Assembly: GCF_015207735.1 (NCBI RefSeq)
Contig: NZ_JADEWG010000001.1
Coordinates: 62,001 to 126,000, forward strand
DNA length: 64,000 nt
Source: [Phormidium] sp. LEGE 05292
GTDB lineage: Bacteria; Cyanobacteriota; Cyanobacteriia; Cyanobacteriales; Aerosakkonemataceae
Direction: 5' to 3'
The notes under the pieces are model-generated. The model was not told the origin of the DNA, did not search any database, and saw nothing but the letters and a program-made list of their open reading frames with translations. The translations under genes were made by a program, and so were the position numbers. How positions within the stretch are numbered: position 1 is the first letter of the stretch; each line of letters begins with the position of its first letter. Shown piece after piece: positions 42,445 through 48,589 of this stretch.

Positions 42445-44997
42445 ATGAGTTATCCAGAGAGAGTGGTTTGGTTGGAGGAACGCACAGAGTTAGGTGTGTT
42501 ATCTGAAAATGCGTTGGCAGCAATTGGGGAAGTTTTAGAAGAAAAGGTAGTTCCGGCGCAGACTCGTTTGGTACAAGAAAATACTATACCTGATGGTCTT
42601 TATATTTTAAAACAGGGGAGGCTAGAGGGCGATCGCATTAATCAAACTGGTTCGGTTTGGATGATTAGTTTACTTCCTGGGGCTATAATTCATTTACAAG
42701 AACTATTATTTGGGCAGTTAACTCAAAGAACTGTTATAGCTTTGAGTGAATGTCAGTTATGGTTTATTCCTGCTAATAAGTTTCAGGAGTTAGTCGCTGC
42801 ATATCCCGAAATTAGCCAAGCTTTTACGCAAAAGTTAGCGATGGAATTGGTGCAGCTTTCTTCGCAGTTAACTTATGAACAAGAACGTCAAACAATTTTA
42901 CGCCCTTATTTAGTCACCAAAGCCAAACGTGGGGTTGTGGGAAAAAGCCGCTATGCGGAAAGGTTGCGCCAACAAATTAAACAAGCAACTAATGATATGG
43001 ATTCGGTTTTAATTTTTGGAGAACCTGGTTTAGAAAAAGATAACCTTGCCGCTTTAATTCATTTTGGTTCCGATCACAGAAGGGAACCAATGATTAAGTT
43101 AGATTGTAGCACTTTGCAAGCCAGCGGTGCAGATTTGTTTGGTCGTGCTGGCGGTAAACCGGGATTAATTGAATGGCTAGGAACAGGAACTTTATTGCTG
43201 AACAATATCCAAGAACTTCCCGAAGAATTAGTACCAAAAATTGCTCATTTACTGGAAACTAAAACTTTCACGCCTGTAGGTGTCCAAGAATTAGAAACTG
43301 CCGCTTTAGAAATTGAGTGTCAGGCTAAAATTATCATGATTTCGGAAAGGACATTACCTAGTATCGATCGCTTAGTCAAGCATCTAATCAAAGTTCCTCC
43401 TTTGCGAGTCAGAAAAGCTGATATTAGTGACCAATTAGAATACTATATGCGGTTATTTTGTCGGGCTAAAGGGGTTGCCAAACCGCAGATTACAGAGGAG
43501 GCTTTACGCAGGTTACAATCTTATGATTTTCCAGGAAATTTGCGGGAATTAGAGAGTTTGGTGCAAAGAGCGATCGTCCAATCCCCCGGCACTAAACTAT
43601 TAACAGAAGAAGTTTTTTGGTCAGTCCAAACTAAAAAGAAAGTATTTCGGGTTAATCTCTTAAATGCCTATCCTTGGTTAAGGCAATTTTTGCGTAGTCC
43701 TTGGTGGCCGGATAGAATAAATTATTGGTTCACTTTTAGCTTTTTCGCCTTTGTTGTTGCTGTCTTATTTCTGGCTCCCCAAAATCGTCAAGAAAACTTT
43801 GCTTTAAACTTATTTTGGGCTTGGTGGTGGCCTTTAATTTTAATTGGGTTTCCCTTTGTCGGACGCTTGTGGTGCGCGGTTTGTCCCTTCATGATTTATG
43901 GAGAAATTACCCAAAAATTATCTTTATGGTTATGGCCTAGACAACTGAAACGTTGGCCTAGACAGTCAGCAGAAAAATGGGGAGGTTGGTTTTTATTTGG
44001 CTTATTTGCCTTAATTTTCCTTTGGGAAGAACTCTGGAATTTAGAAAATACCGCTTATCTTTCGGCTTGCTTACTGTTATTAATTACTGCCGGAGCCATG
44101 ATATTTTCTACTATTTTTGAGCGAAGATTTTGGTGTCGCTATCTTTGTCCGATCGGGGGAATGAATGGCTTATTTGCTAAACTTTCGATGACTGAATTAC
44201 GAGCGCAACAGGGAACTTGTTCGGCTGAATGTACCACTTACCAATGTTATAAAGGTGGGCCGCAAAAAGGAGAAGGTTTAGCGACAAATGGTTGTCCTTT
44301 ATATTCCCATCCGGCACAATTAGAAGATAACAAAGATTGTGTTTTGTGCATGACTTGTTTAAAAGCTTGTCCGCATCGATCGGTAGAATTAAATTTGCGT
44401 CCTCCCGGAATTGAACTTTGGACAACTCACACTCCTCACAGCTACGAAGTAGCGTTGCTAATGTTGTTATTAGGTGGGGTTTTTCTGCATCGTTTACCAG
44501 AAATCAATTCTTGGTTGGGATGGAATTTGAATTTAACTCAATTTTGGCCTCATTTAGGGTTTTCTTTAGCAGCATTACTCCTGCCAGTAACAATTACATT
44601 TGTTGCTTATGGATGGATCAGGTTGATGATTTGGTTCAATGTAACTAGAACGCACAATTTTATTAAACCCCGCTCTTTTGTAGAGTTGGCTTATGGTTAT
44701 TTACCGCTAGTTTTAGGAGGAAATTTAGCTCATTATTTGCGTTTAGGTTTAGGTGAAGCAGGACGCATTTTACCCGTGAGTTTAGCAACTTTTGGTTTGC
44801 ATGGTGAAGGTTTACCAATAATAGTTGCTCACCCGGCTGTGATCGCATTTTTACAAGGAGTGACGTTGATATTTTCGGTAATTTGTTCGGTAATATTAAC
44901 CCAAAAAATTGCCCGTCAATCTTTTAGAGGTTTGTTGCCTCAACATCTAGCAACTATTGTTTTGTGTGTAGGGTTATGGGTGATTATTGTTAATTAA
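42445..44997 (+). CDS. fusion of a cNMP-binding domain, a degenerate sigma-54-type AAA+ domain and a NapH/NosR-like 4Fe-4S membrane domain
   Basis: The 850-residue protein starts with a Crp-like beta roll (residues about 15-140). An AAA+ domain of the NtrC class follows, but Walker A is GEPGLEKD, Walker B is GTLLLNNIQEL in place of the usual LDEI, and the GAFTGA loop is missing, so ATPase and sigma-54 activity are unlikely; cyanobacteria also lack sigma-54. The second half is membrane-bound with CAVCPFMIYGE, CRYLCPIGGMNGLFAK and a ferredoxin motif CVLCMTCLKACPH, like NapH/NosR/CcoG. The start is ATG at 42445 with GGGAG. It precedes the Hcp and Crp/Fnr genes. The role is probably redox or nitrogen-oxide sensing, which is inferred. 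Confidence 0.85.
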   Translation: MSYPERVVWLEERTELGVLSENALAAIGEVLEEKVVPAQTRLVQENTIPDGLYILKQGRLEGDRINQTGSVWMISLLPGAIIHLQELLFGQLTQRTVIALSECQLWFIPANKFQELVAAYPEISQAFTQKLAMELVQLSSQLTYEQERQTILRPYLVTKAKRGVVGKSRYAERLRQQIKQATNDMDSVLIFGEPGLEKDNLAALIHFGSDHRREPMIKLDCSTLQASGADLFGRAGGKPGLIEWLGTGTLLLNNIQELPEELVPKIAHLLETKTFTPVGVQELETAALEIECQAKIIMISERTLPSIDRLVKHLIKVPPLRVRKADISDQLEYYMRLFCRAKGVAKPQITEEALRRLQSYDFPGNLRELESLVQRAIVQSPGTKLLTEEVFWSVQTKKKVFRVNLLNAYPWLRQFLRSPWWPDRINYWFTFSFFAFVVAVLFLAPQNRQENFALNLFWAWWWPLILIGFPFVGRLWCAVCPFMIYGEITQKLSLWLWPRQLKRWPRQSAEKWGGWFLFGLFALIFLWEELWNLENTAYLSACLLLLITAGAMIFSTIFERRFWCRYLCPIGGMNGLFAKLSMTELRAQQGTCSAECTTYQCYKGGPQKGEGLATNGCPLYSHPAQLEDNKDCVLCMTCLKACPHRSVELNLRPPGIELWTTHTPHSYEVALLMLLLGGVFLHRLPEINSWLGWNLNLTQFWPHLGFSLAALLLPVTITFVAYGWIRLMIWFNVTRTHNFIKPRSFVELAYGYLPLVLGGNLAHYLRLGLGEAGRILPVSLATFGLHGEGLPIIVAHPAVIAFLQGVTLIFSVICSVILTQKIARQSFRGLLPQHLATIVLCVGLWVIIVN

Positions 44998-46152: not shown

Positions 46153-47790
46153 TTAACTTAAACAAGCTGCCAAATCTTCATCGGCGGTAGTAATCGGCTT
46201 CAAGTTATATTTTTCTGACAGTAACTTGAAGACATTTGGAGAGATAAAGGCTGGTAATGTTGGCCCTAAGCGGATATCTTTAATTCCCAGATAAAGTAGG
46301 GTTAATAAAATGGATACAGCCTTTTGTTCGTACCAAGAAAGAATCATTGATAAAGGTAACTGATTCACTTCTACATTAAAGGCATTTGCTAACGCTAAAG
46401 CAATTTGAATTGCCGAGTAAGCATCATTACATTGACCTACATCCATTAACCGAGGTAAACCTTCGATATCTCCTAAATCTTTGTCGAAGAAACGGAACTT
46501 ACCACAAGCCAAAGTTAAAACTATACAATCAGTTGGAACTTTTTCTACTAATTCGCTGTAGTAGTTCCTTCCTGATTTAGCACCATCACAACCACCGACT
46601 AAGAAAAAGTGGCGAATTTTGCCTTGTTTAACTGCATCAATTACATCACCAGCTACACCTAAAACTGCGTTACGGGCAAAGCCTGTCATTACTTCTTTAG
46701 CGACAACATCTTCAATAAATCCAGGCATTTCTAAAGCTTTTTCAATTACCAAATTGAAGTTGCTGTTGGTGAGGTGAATTAATCCAGGCCAACCAACAGG
46801 CCCAAGGGTATAAACGCGGTCTTTGTAGTTATCATGGGGTGGCATGAGGCAGTTAGTTGTCATCACGATCGGCCCAGGAAATGCCGGAAATTCTTTAGTT
46901 TGATTTTGCCAAGCGGTGCCATAATGACCATACAAATGAGGGTAGTTTTGTTTTAATTTGGGATAGGCATGGGCTGGCAACATTTCGCCGTGAGTGTAGA
47001 TATAAATGCCTGTATTTTCTGTTTGTTGGAGGAGGTATTCTAATTGTTTAAGGTCATGACCTGAAACTAAAATTGCTTTGCCTTTTTTCGCGCCTAAAGG
47101 TACAGATGTAGGAACCGGATGCCCATAAGTGTTGGTGTTTCCTGCGTCAAGTAATTCCATTGTTCGCAGGTTAATTTCTCCTAATTTTAAAGCTATATTT
47201 ACCCAATCTTCTAAGGTTTTATCATTGCTACCAAGGGCGGCTAAGGCTTCATGACAGAAGGCATAAACGCGATCGTCTTCTTGACCAAGTTCGGCAGCAT
47301 GATAAGCGTAAGCAGCAATGCCTTTTAGTCCATAAAGTACAGTGAGTTTTAAGGAGAAAATATCGACATTTTTGGCAGAAGAACTGATAAATTGGTATTC
47401 AATATCTTTGCCTTGTTGGACTAGTTCGCTAACAGTTTGTCCTGGTTGAAATTCAGCAAGGGTTGACCATTCTATATGTTGGCAACTGGTGAATAATGTT
47501 CGGGCTTTTAATTCATCCCGCAATGCTATGGCTTTGTGGATATAATTAACAAAGTCGTTGGGGTCAAAGTTGACGTTTGTTAGAGTAGAAAATAGGGTTT
47601 CACAAGTGAAGAAATCGGCTTCTTTATCGATGATATCAAAGCTACGAGCAGCGATCGCAACTTCTCCCAATCCCCGCAAACAATGAACTAATAAATCTTG
47701 TAGAGCATCAACTTCTGGGCTTTTACCACAAGCACCCCATTGATAGCATCCTTCTCCTTTGGTGGTTTGTTCACATTGGTTGCAATACAT
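46153..47790 (-). CDS. hcp: hydroxylamine reductase / hybrid cluster protein
   Basis: Hcp is a 545-residue iron-sulfur protein with a hybrid Fe-S-O cluster; it reduces hydroxylamine in vitro and protects against nitric oxide in enteric bacteria. The N-terminal cysteine motif (MYCNQCEQTTKGEGCYQWGACGK) has the CxxC-x8-C-x5-C spacing of the 4Fe-4S cluster. Ligands of the hybrid cluster appear in HGEMLPAH, NCLMPP, LTLACGKFRF and DVGQCNDAYSA. It is divergent from a Crp/Fnr gene with a perfect operator between the two. Confidence 0.95.
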   Translation of the reverse strand: MYCNQCEQTTKGEGCYQWGACGKSPEVDALQDLLVHCLRGLGEVAIAARSFDIIDKEADFFTCETLFSTLTNVNFDPNDFVNYIHKAIALRDELKARTLFTSCQHIEWSTLAEFQPGQTVSELVQQGKDIEYQFISSSAKNVDIFSLKLTVLYGLKGIAAYAYHAAELGQEDDRVYAFCHEALAALGSNDKTLEDWVNIALKLGEINLRTMELLDAGNTNTYGHPVPTSVPLGAKKGKAILVSGHDLKQLEYLLQQTENTGIYIYTHGEMLPAHAYPKLKQNYPHLYGHYGTAWQNQTKEFPAFPGPIVMTTNCLMPPHDNYKDRVYTLGPVGWPGLIHLTNSNFNLVIEKALEMPGFIEDVVAKEVMTGFARNAVLGVAGDVIDAVKQGKIRHFFLVGGCDGAKSGRNYYSELVEKVPTDCIVLTLACGKFRFFDKDLGDIEGLPRLMDVGQCNDAYSAIQIALALANAFNVEVNQLPLSMILSWYEQKAVSILLTLLYLGIKDIRLGPTLPAFISPNVFKLLSEKYNLKPITTADEDLAACLS

Positions 47791-47849: not shown

Positions 47850-47863
47850 TTGACTTAAGTCAA
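47850..47863. promoter_or_regulatory. HcpR/Fnr-type operator TTGAC-N4-GTCAA
   Basis: TTGACTTAAGTCAA is a perfect palindrome in the 94-base gap between hcp and the divergent Crp/Fnr gene. It fits the FNR/DNR/HcpR half-site pattern TTGAY-N4-RTCAA. It lies directly before the ribosome-binding site of the regulator gene, which suggests autoregulation, and about 66 bases before the hcp start. Confidence 0.75.
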
Positions 47864-47884: not shown

Positions 47885-48589
47885 ATGGCAAGCAAGGACA
47901 ACCAGAAAAGTATTGATTTACAGGAGTTTCTGAGCAATAGTCAAATGTTTTTTGGCTTGCCAACAGATGAGGTTGATGCTTTGTTAAGTATTGCTCAACA
48001 GCAAACTTACCAAAAAGGCGAGACAATTTTCTGGGAAGGGGATGCTGGAACGGGATTTTTTTTAGTAATTTCTGGCAAAGTAAAGGTTTTTAAGATTTCC
48101 CCGGAAGGTAAAGAACAAATTTTACAAGTGTTCGGTGCTCATGAACATTTTGCTGAAGTACCAGCTTTTGATGGGCAACCTTTTCCGGCTTCAGCTGCGG
48201 CTTTAGAGAAAACTGAACTGTTGTTTTTTCCCCGCACTACTTTTTTAGAACTAATCAAAAATAATCCAAGTTTGGCAGTTAATTTGTTGAAGATTTTCGC
48301 TCGTCATTTACGCAGGTTTGCTAAAGTTATTGAAGACCTTTCTTTAAGAGAAGTTCCCGGAAGATTTGCAGCTTATTTGTTGTATTTGAGCGATCGCACT
48401 GGCAACCAAGAGGAAGTAGAATTAGATTTAACTAAAGGACAATTAGCCGCTTTGTTAGGTACAATTCCTGAAACTTTATCGCGGGTATTTGCCAAACTCA
48501 GCCAGGAAGAAATTATTAGCTTGAATGGTTCAACTGTTAAATTATTGAATTTACAGAGGTTAAAAGTTTTAGGTGGCACTAGAGAGTAA
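47885..48589 (+). CDS. Crp/Fnr-family regulator, probable HcpR-like
   Basis: The 234-residue protein has a Crp-type sensor domain (GETIFWEGDAGTGFFLVISGKVKVFK) and a winged helix-turn-helix with the recognition helix IPETLSRVFAKL, whose E-x2-S-R residues are those that read TTGAT/TTGAC half-sites. There is no N-terminal cysteine cluster, so it is not an oxygen-sensing FNR. HcpR/DNR-type regulators use haem to sense NO; no haem ligand can be read with certainty. Divergence from hcp and the operator between them make hcp and its own gene the likely targets. Confidence 0.85.
   Translation: MASKDNQKSIDLQEFLSNSQMFFGLPTDEVDALLSIAQQQTYQKGETIFWEGDAGTGFFLVISGKVKVFKISPEGKEQILQVFGAHEHFAEVPAFDGQPFPASAAALEKTELLFFPRTTFLELIKNNPSLAVNLLKIFARHLRRFAKVIEDLSLREVPGRFAAYLLYLSDRTGNQEEVELDLTKGQLAALLGTIPETLSRVFAKLSQEEIISLNGSTVKLLNLQRLKVLGGTRE

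Follow-up and report, generated by a model that had tools for sequence, protein, structure and literature searches.

The window (the whole stretch of DNA analyzed, 64,000 nt) encodes an 850-aa fusion protein which, with a probability of about 0.5, is a quinone-linked electron-transfer protein of the NapH/NosR superfamily, where a non-hydrolysing AAA+ domain and a Crp-type domain would form a regulatory scaffold, and whose function would lie in sulfur/thiol redox, not in NO metabolism. Judged from its sequence, it is neither a sigma-54 activator nor a member of an hcp/NO pathway. The architecture itself, a Crp-type domain, a sigma-54-type AAA+ domain and a 4Fe-4S membrane domain (polyferredoxin) in one chain, was described in an earlier note on this DNA and is confirmed by NCBIfam and Pfam, the latter with matches to cNMP_binding (residues 34-119, 2e-13), Sigma54_activat (165-288, 3e-15), AAA_lid_14 (321-394, 6e-14) and Fer4_5 (1.5e-7). 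The reading frame 42445-44997 (+) is open throughout, and the orthologue from a genus-mate of the window genome is also 850 aa long. The gene has the following features.

42445..44997, + strand: gene of the 850-aa fusion protein, with a Crp-type ligand domain, a non-catalytic AAA+ domain of sigma-54 type and a membrane polyferredoxin (Pfam, NCBIfam)
42544..42801, + strand: cNMP-binding-type domain, aa 34-119, with no HTH after it and cAMP cassette residues unconserved (Pfam)
42937..43404, + strand: sigma-54-activator-type AAA+ core, aa 165-320 (Pfam, PspF alignment, fold matches, dN/dS 0.088)
43018..43041, + strand: degenerate Walker A, GEPGLEKD, aa 192-199 (alignment)
43189..43218, + strand: degenerate Walker B, TLLLNNIQEL, aa 249-258, N253 and N254 invariant in the branch A alignment
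43405..43626, + strand: AAA+ lid, aa 321-394 (Pfam)
43645..44994, + strand: membrane polyferredoxin module, aa 401-850, about nine TM helices (NCBIfam, hydropathy, homologue alignment)
43873..43887, + strand: first membrane-face cysteine motif, CAVCP, aa 477-481
44134..44151, + strand: second membrane-face cysteine motif, CRYLCP, aa 564-569
44218..44373, + strand: two [4Fe-4S] motifs, Cys 592, 596, 601, 617 and Cys 632, 635, 638, 642, predicted cytoplasmic

The fusion family was found in 212 of the 291 Cyanobacteriia genomes sampled, or in 202 after ten weak matches had been dropped, that is, in roughly two thirds. No description of this strongly conserved protein family or of its domain combination was found in the full text of the searchable open literature, and database labels of its relatives are 'nitrogen assimilation regulatory protein' or the name of a single domain. 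Full-length fusions were absent outside the cyanobacterial class, both from the phylum sample and from plasmids of other phyla, which yielded separate halves only. The family splits into two main branches, and the window protein belongs to branch A. A 903-aa paralogue, 40% identical to it and encoded in the same genome, represents branch B, whose 41 sequences form a clade of their own (support 1.0). The Crp-type domain is missing from a third, small clade that occurs in small genomes, as well as from some branch A members.

Several variants were also observed. Small-genome cyanobacteria (L211-L214, L225, L186) have the AAA+ and Fe-S parts only, with DQ, DC or SG in Walker B, and one genus (g71: G063, G077, G090; L166:286-3651) has a Crp-AAA-AAA-FeS variant with tandem AAA+ domains, the first carrying GEAGVGKV and LDH, and the second the usual dead motifs.

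The AAA+ domain belongs to the clade of sigma-54 activators (PF00158 and the lid are both above cut-off), and its AlphaFold model gives an AAA+ fold whose structure matches are NtrC1, NtrX, FleQ and PspF. Its catalytic motifs, on the other hand, are dead, as the earlier note had claimed for Walker B and for the sigma-54 contact loop. In Walker A the third Gly is replaced by Glu, the Lys being retained; the Walker B acids are replaced by NN; and, as an alignment with PspF shows, the GAFTGA loop is deleted, as is the arginine-finger segment, but PGNLREL, the sensor-II stretch, is still there. Moreover, the sigma-54 DNA-binding domain (PF04552, rpoN) is absent from the window genome (four control genomes were positive), consistent with the earlier note's claim that cyanobacteria have no sigma-54. 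Compared with such activators (bEBPs: PspF, NtrC, NifA), the window protein has the AAA+ fold and lid of the same clade, but lacks GAFTGA, Walker B acids, the arginine-finger segment and HTH, and its genome lacks rpoN.

A survey of Walker motifs among homologues, set beforehand as a test of these claims, yielded no intact catalytic site: Walker B Glu occurs in 0/206 distinct homologues, the DE pair in none, and a GAFTGA-like motif in 0/208. Residues G195, K198, D199, N253 and N254 are invariant across 29 branch A proteins; in the main branch A subtree, Walker B has NN in 152 of the 156 proteins, and Walker A is mostly GEPGLEKD or GEPGLGKD. In branch B, the GKT P-loop is kept in 40 of the 41 sequences, and the catalytic Glu is replaced (DN, NN, SN, DQ, DH, EN). 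Between the window gene and its genus-mate orthologue, dN/dS is 0.088 in the AAA+ core, 0.077 in the lid, 0.054 in the Fe-S membrane core, 0.217 in the Crp domain and 0.19 in the last helices.

Since the catalytic motifs are lost family-wide and dN/dS is low, sequence evidence indicates that the AAA+ domain is under purifying selection as a non-catalytic part, and that the motif loss is not local decay. The loss of several catalytic motifs could also mark a functionless, decaying relic, but this explanation is refuted for the family by the AAA+ dN/dS of 0.09, the invariant N253/N254 and the presence in about 200 of the 291 genomes. The retention of the AAA+ fold despite dead motifs, asserted in the earlier note, is borne out by the AlphaFold matches and by this dN/dS, and the near-invariance of the dead motifs in branch A supports its idea of a regulatory scaffold that has been reused, without ATP hydrolysis, in combination with membrane electron transfer. 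In this family, a once catalytic AAA+ domain has clearly become a conserved component without catalytic function, attached to a membrane electron carrier.

The two branches may differ in nucleotide binding. The Walker B variant E108Q of PspF binds ATP 30-fold tighter, with <1% hydrolysis, and forms a constitutive hexamer (PMC4132715), which suggests a precedent for reading branch B as a ring that binds ATP but does not hydrolyse it. Branch A is possibly nucleotide-independent, as the Mg-binding Asp is lost and the third Gly of the P-loop is mostly lost.

The Crp-like sensor of the earlier note stands as regards the ligand-binding fold only. The fold is present alone, and no HTH or other DNA-binding domain was matched by Pfam or NCBIfam anywhere in the 850-aa protein; hence the layout of Crp/Fnr regulators (a Crp-type ligand domain, then HTH) is not found here. 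In branch A, Gly-Glu is missing from the phosphate-binding cassette and the Arg position is unconserved; these positions (Gly-Glu ... Arg) we take to be the cAMP-binding residues of E. coli CRP.

These observations bear on the possibility that the protein is a membrane-bound transcription regulator, in which the AAA+/Crp part would relay the redox state of the Fe-S/quinone module to a promoter of sigma-70 type. The AAA+ domain does belong to an activator family, GAFTGA-less activators acting on sigma-70 promoters exist (NtrC of Caulobacter and R. capsulatus, VpsR; PMC10274813), and NosR homologues were initially named regulators (PMC5928378). VpsR is also among the PDB matches of the window AAA+ domain, and these activators share with it a same-clade AAA+ domain lacking the sigma-54 loop; still, they are soluble DNA-binding regulators, while the window protein sits in the membrane, lacks an HTH and contains Fe-S motifs. 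Given the lack of any DNA-binding domain (Pfam, NCBIfam), the fact that the redox core and not the N-terminus is most conserved, and the loss of the Crp domain in some homologues, we consider such a regulator unlikely, and the regulator label carried by relatives is contradicted by the present evidence.

The electron-transfer reading is centered on the C-terminal 450 aa, which contain CAVCP, CRYLCP and eight more cysteines in [4Fe-4S]-type spacing. These four sets of motifs, with twelve core cysteines in total, are kept in 207 of the 208 homologues. Two CX2-3CP and two [4Fe-4S] motifs among TM helices form the pattern of the NapH/NosR superfamily; among NCBIfam models, NapH/MauN (TIGR02163) matches the C-terminus best, but far below the cut-off (50.5 bits vs 213). 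Hydropathy gives about nine helices, and the positive-inside loops place the predicted clusters in the cytoplasm, on the same side as the Crp and AAA+ parts. Owing to the poor model of the membrane/Fe-S loop (pLDDT 25-33 in the Fe-S loop), useful information from the fold search was confined to the AAA+ part, and solved-structure relatives of the membrane module were limited to ferredoxin-like fragments.

A four-helix module with two CX3CP motifs is common to NapH and NosR, and in NapH it has been proposed to oxidise quinol (PMC5928378). NapH/MauN and NosR (TIGR02163, PF12801) resemble the window protein in the helical core, the two CX2-3CP and the two [4Fe-4S] motifs predicted to be cytoplasmic, but the latter has about five extra C-terminal helices and N-terminal AAA+ and Crp parts. 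Moreover, unlike NosR, it has no FMN-binding family, its N-terminus being Crp/AAA+ and not an exported FMN domain. A quinone site in the window protein is assumed from its likeness to NapH/NosR.

Homologous membrane modules occur in stand-alone 4Fe-4S membrane proteins (Deinococcus ficus, haloarchaea, Sulfurovum), which differ in having no N-terminal regulatory domains and other gene neighbours. The Deinococcus ficus protein WP_027463891.1 aligns over the whole 450-aa module with 31% identity, which argues that the module is an independent membrane redox unit. The regulatory domains would then have been grafted onto a pre-existing membrane module, if the direction of this change is read correctly from the sequences. 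Weaker matches come from haloarchaea, where the neighbour genes give no consistent hint, from Sulfurovum and from a rhizobial iron-uptake locus. The Deinococcus ficus module gene, located on a plasmid (L311:8965-10320), lies behind a gene for a His-rich membrane-anchored protein, near DUF305/DUF3105 genes.

Some of these neighbours could point to an iron- or copper-handling reductase of the FtrD or CcoG kind whose N-terminus would be sensory: the rhizobial module homologue is encoded among iron-transporter, cupredoxin and FTR1 genes, and the Deinococcus homologue near DUF305 and DUF3105 genes. However, no recurrent metal-transport genes are found beside branch A or branch B genes, and the rhizobial match spans just 42-46% of the module, making a metal-handling role quite improbable.

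The earlier note had linked the fusion with the nearby hcp gene and with electron supply for NO detoxification, the gene being next to hcp and an HcpR-like regulator. This region has the following features.

46153..47790, - strand: hcp (hydroxylamine reductase / hybrid cluster protein), a neighbour outside the system
47850..47863, no strand assigned: palindrome TTGACTTAAGTCAA in the intergenic region of hcp and the CRP-family gene, belonging to a separate hcp module
47885..48589, + strand: CRP-family regulator, divergent from hcp, a neighbour outside the system

Both genes are indeed downstream of the fusion gene, but a HAD-phosphatase gene sits between, and the regulator is below every curated family cut-off. 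The proposal that Hcp-based NO detoxification receives electrons from the fusion protein, or is controlled by it, is consistent with this adjacency, seen in the window genome and in one other examined genome of the genus, and with the NosR/NapH-like membrane domain. The survey of co-occurrence does not support it: hcp is found in 29 of the 291 cyanobacterial genomes, and the fusion in 22/29 hcp genomes vs 180/262 others (p=0.53, kinship ignored). Among branch A genes, just 2/98 have hcp within 8 kb, both in the window's genus; in genomes outside the genus that have both genes, these are far apart or on separate contigs; and none of 141 fusion genes has the hcp palindrome in its upstream region. 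We consider a role in the Hcp pathway very unlikely, and the fusion gene was rejected as a member of an hcp/NO-detoxification gene set on the co-occurrence, locus and palindrome counts.

Instead, hcp and the CRP-family gene form a divergent module of their own, separate from the fusion. A relative of the CRP-family regulator is near hcp in 13 of the 19 other loci examined, and TTGACN4GTCAA is found just upstream of hcp in eight of them, as in the window. The pair, often divergent and with TTGACTTAAGTCAA upstream of hcp, recurs in cyanobacteria and is likely to be a cyanobacterial HcpR-type module.

Branch A genes have no conserved neighbours beyond close relatives. Functional context comes from branch B, which is associated with sulfide loci. 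The cysteine synthase gene cysK is present in 26 of the 42 branch B loci, always on the same strand, and directly downstream in 21; its product passes the cysK family cut-off. Within 8 kb, cysK is found in 19/30 branch B vs 3/98 branch A loci (p=3e-12, kinship ignored), and the sulfide-quinone reductase gene (SQR) near 1/98 branch A genes, so that branch A shows no such association; many branch A genomes lack SQR. Also enriched within 8 kb of branch B genes are rhodanese, DUF3365, DUF4079, PetC, psbA, SQR and a nitronate-monooxygenase-like gene. As the markers for these locus tests were chosen after inspection of branch B loci, the genome-level test of SQR is the more independent one: SQR, identified by matches to solved sulfide-quinone reductases at 2e-89, is present in 32/37 branch B genomes vs 51/254 others (p=3e-15, kinship ignored). 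Although many assemblies are fragmented, 14 of these 32 genomes have it within 20 kb of their branch B gene. In the genus-mate of the window genome, SQR stands beside the branch B gene, while the window genome has none at E 1e-90, though branch B is present.

Two complete plasmids carry branch B islands. In Pseudanabaena galeata, the island on pPg_03 (L312) contains DsrE, glutaredoxin, fusion, cysK, rhodanese, DUF3365, DUF4079, DUF2892, PetC and psbA genes, and in Aulosira laxa, the one on plasmid2 (L313) contains a transcriptional regulator, fusion, cysK, petC_2 and psbA. Combining the fusion and cysK with genes for an additional Rieske protein (PetC), an additional D1 (psbA) and sulfur transfer, such islands are possibly portable kits for photosynthesis under sulfide. 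Branch B loci, which carry SQR, ArsR-type regulator, psbA, DUF302 and ACR3-type genes, are comparable to the SQR/ArsR sulfide loci of cyanobacteria (Geitlerinema, a Synechocystis plasmid; PMC5061849); the text describing the latter does not mention Crp, AAA, 4Fe-4S or cysteine synthase and describes neither the fusion nor cysK.

According to the preferred reading, quinone-linked electron transfer in sulfur/thiol redox, the Crp-type domain would sense a small ligand, the AAA+ part would be a static or nucleotide-gated ring, and the two parts would jointly determine how electrons pass between the two cytoplasmic [4Fe-4S] clusters and the plastoquinone pool. In branch B, this control would serve sulfide/persulfide metabolism and either feed or protect the cysteine synthase, whose gene follows immediately downstream, while branch A, including the window protein, would be a general-purpose version for thiol/quinone redox balance. 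We infer the latter role from the sister branch and from the wide, neighbour-independent distribution of branch A; given the identity of about 40%, the lack of a conserved neighbour and the many genomes without SQR, it could differ from that of branch B. A bolder formulation, rather doubtful as a whole, is that the entire family consists of redox sensor-transducers in which a recruited, non-hydrolysing sigma-54-type AAA+ ring gates plastoquinone/Fe-S electron flow, branch B being a sulfide/persulfide component with its own cysteine synthase, carried on plasmid islands together with alternative D1 and Rieske genes, and branch A a housekeeping form in most cyanobacteria. The branch B association offers a direct and testable way into the question of how sulfide, the synthesis of cysteine and the electron flow of photosynthesis are coupled in cyanobacteria.

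Two further observations on branch B loci were made by eye only. One branch B gene (L127:8570-11014) is divergent from chlN-chlL-like genes (oxygen-sensitive chlorophyll synthesis), and HdrB-like CCG-domain genes are found near three others (L120:19324-19899, L124:2-733, L125:2287-3198).
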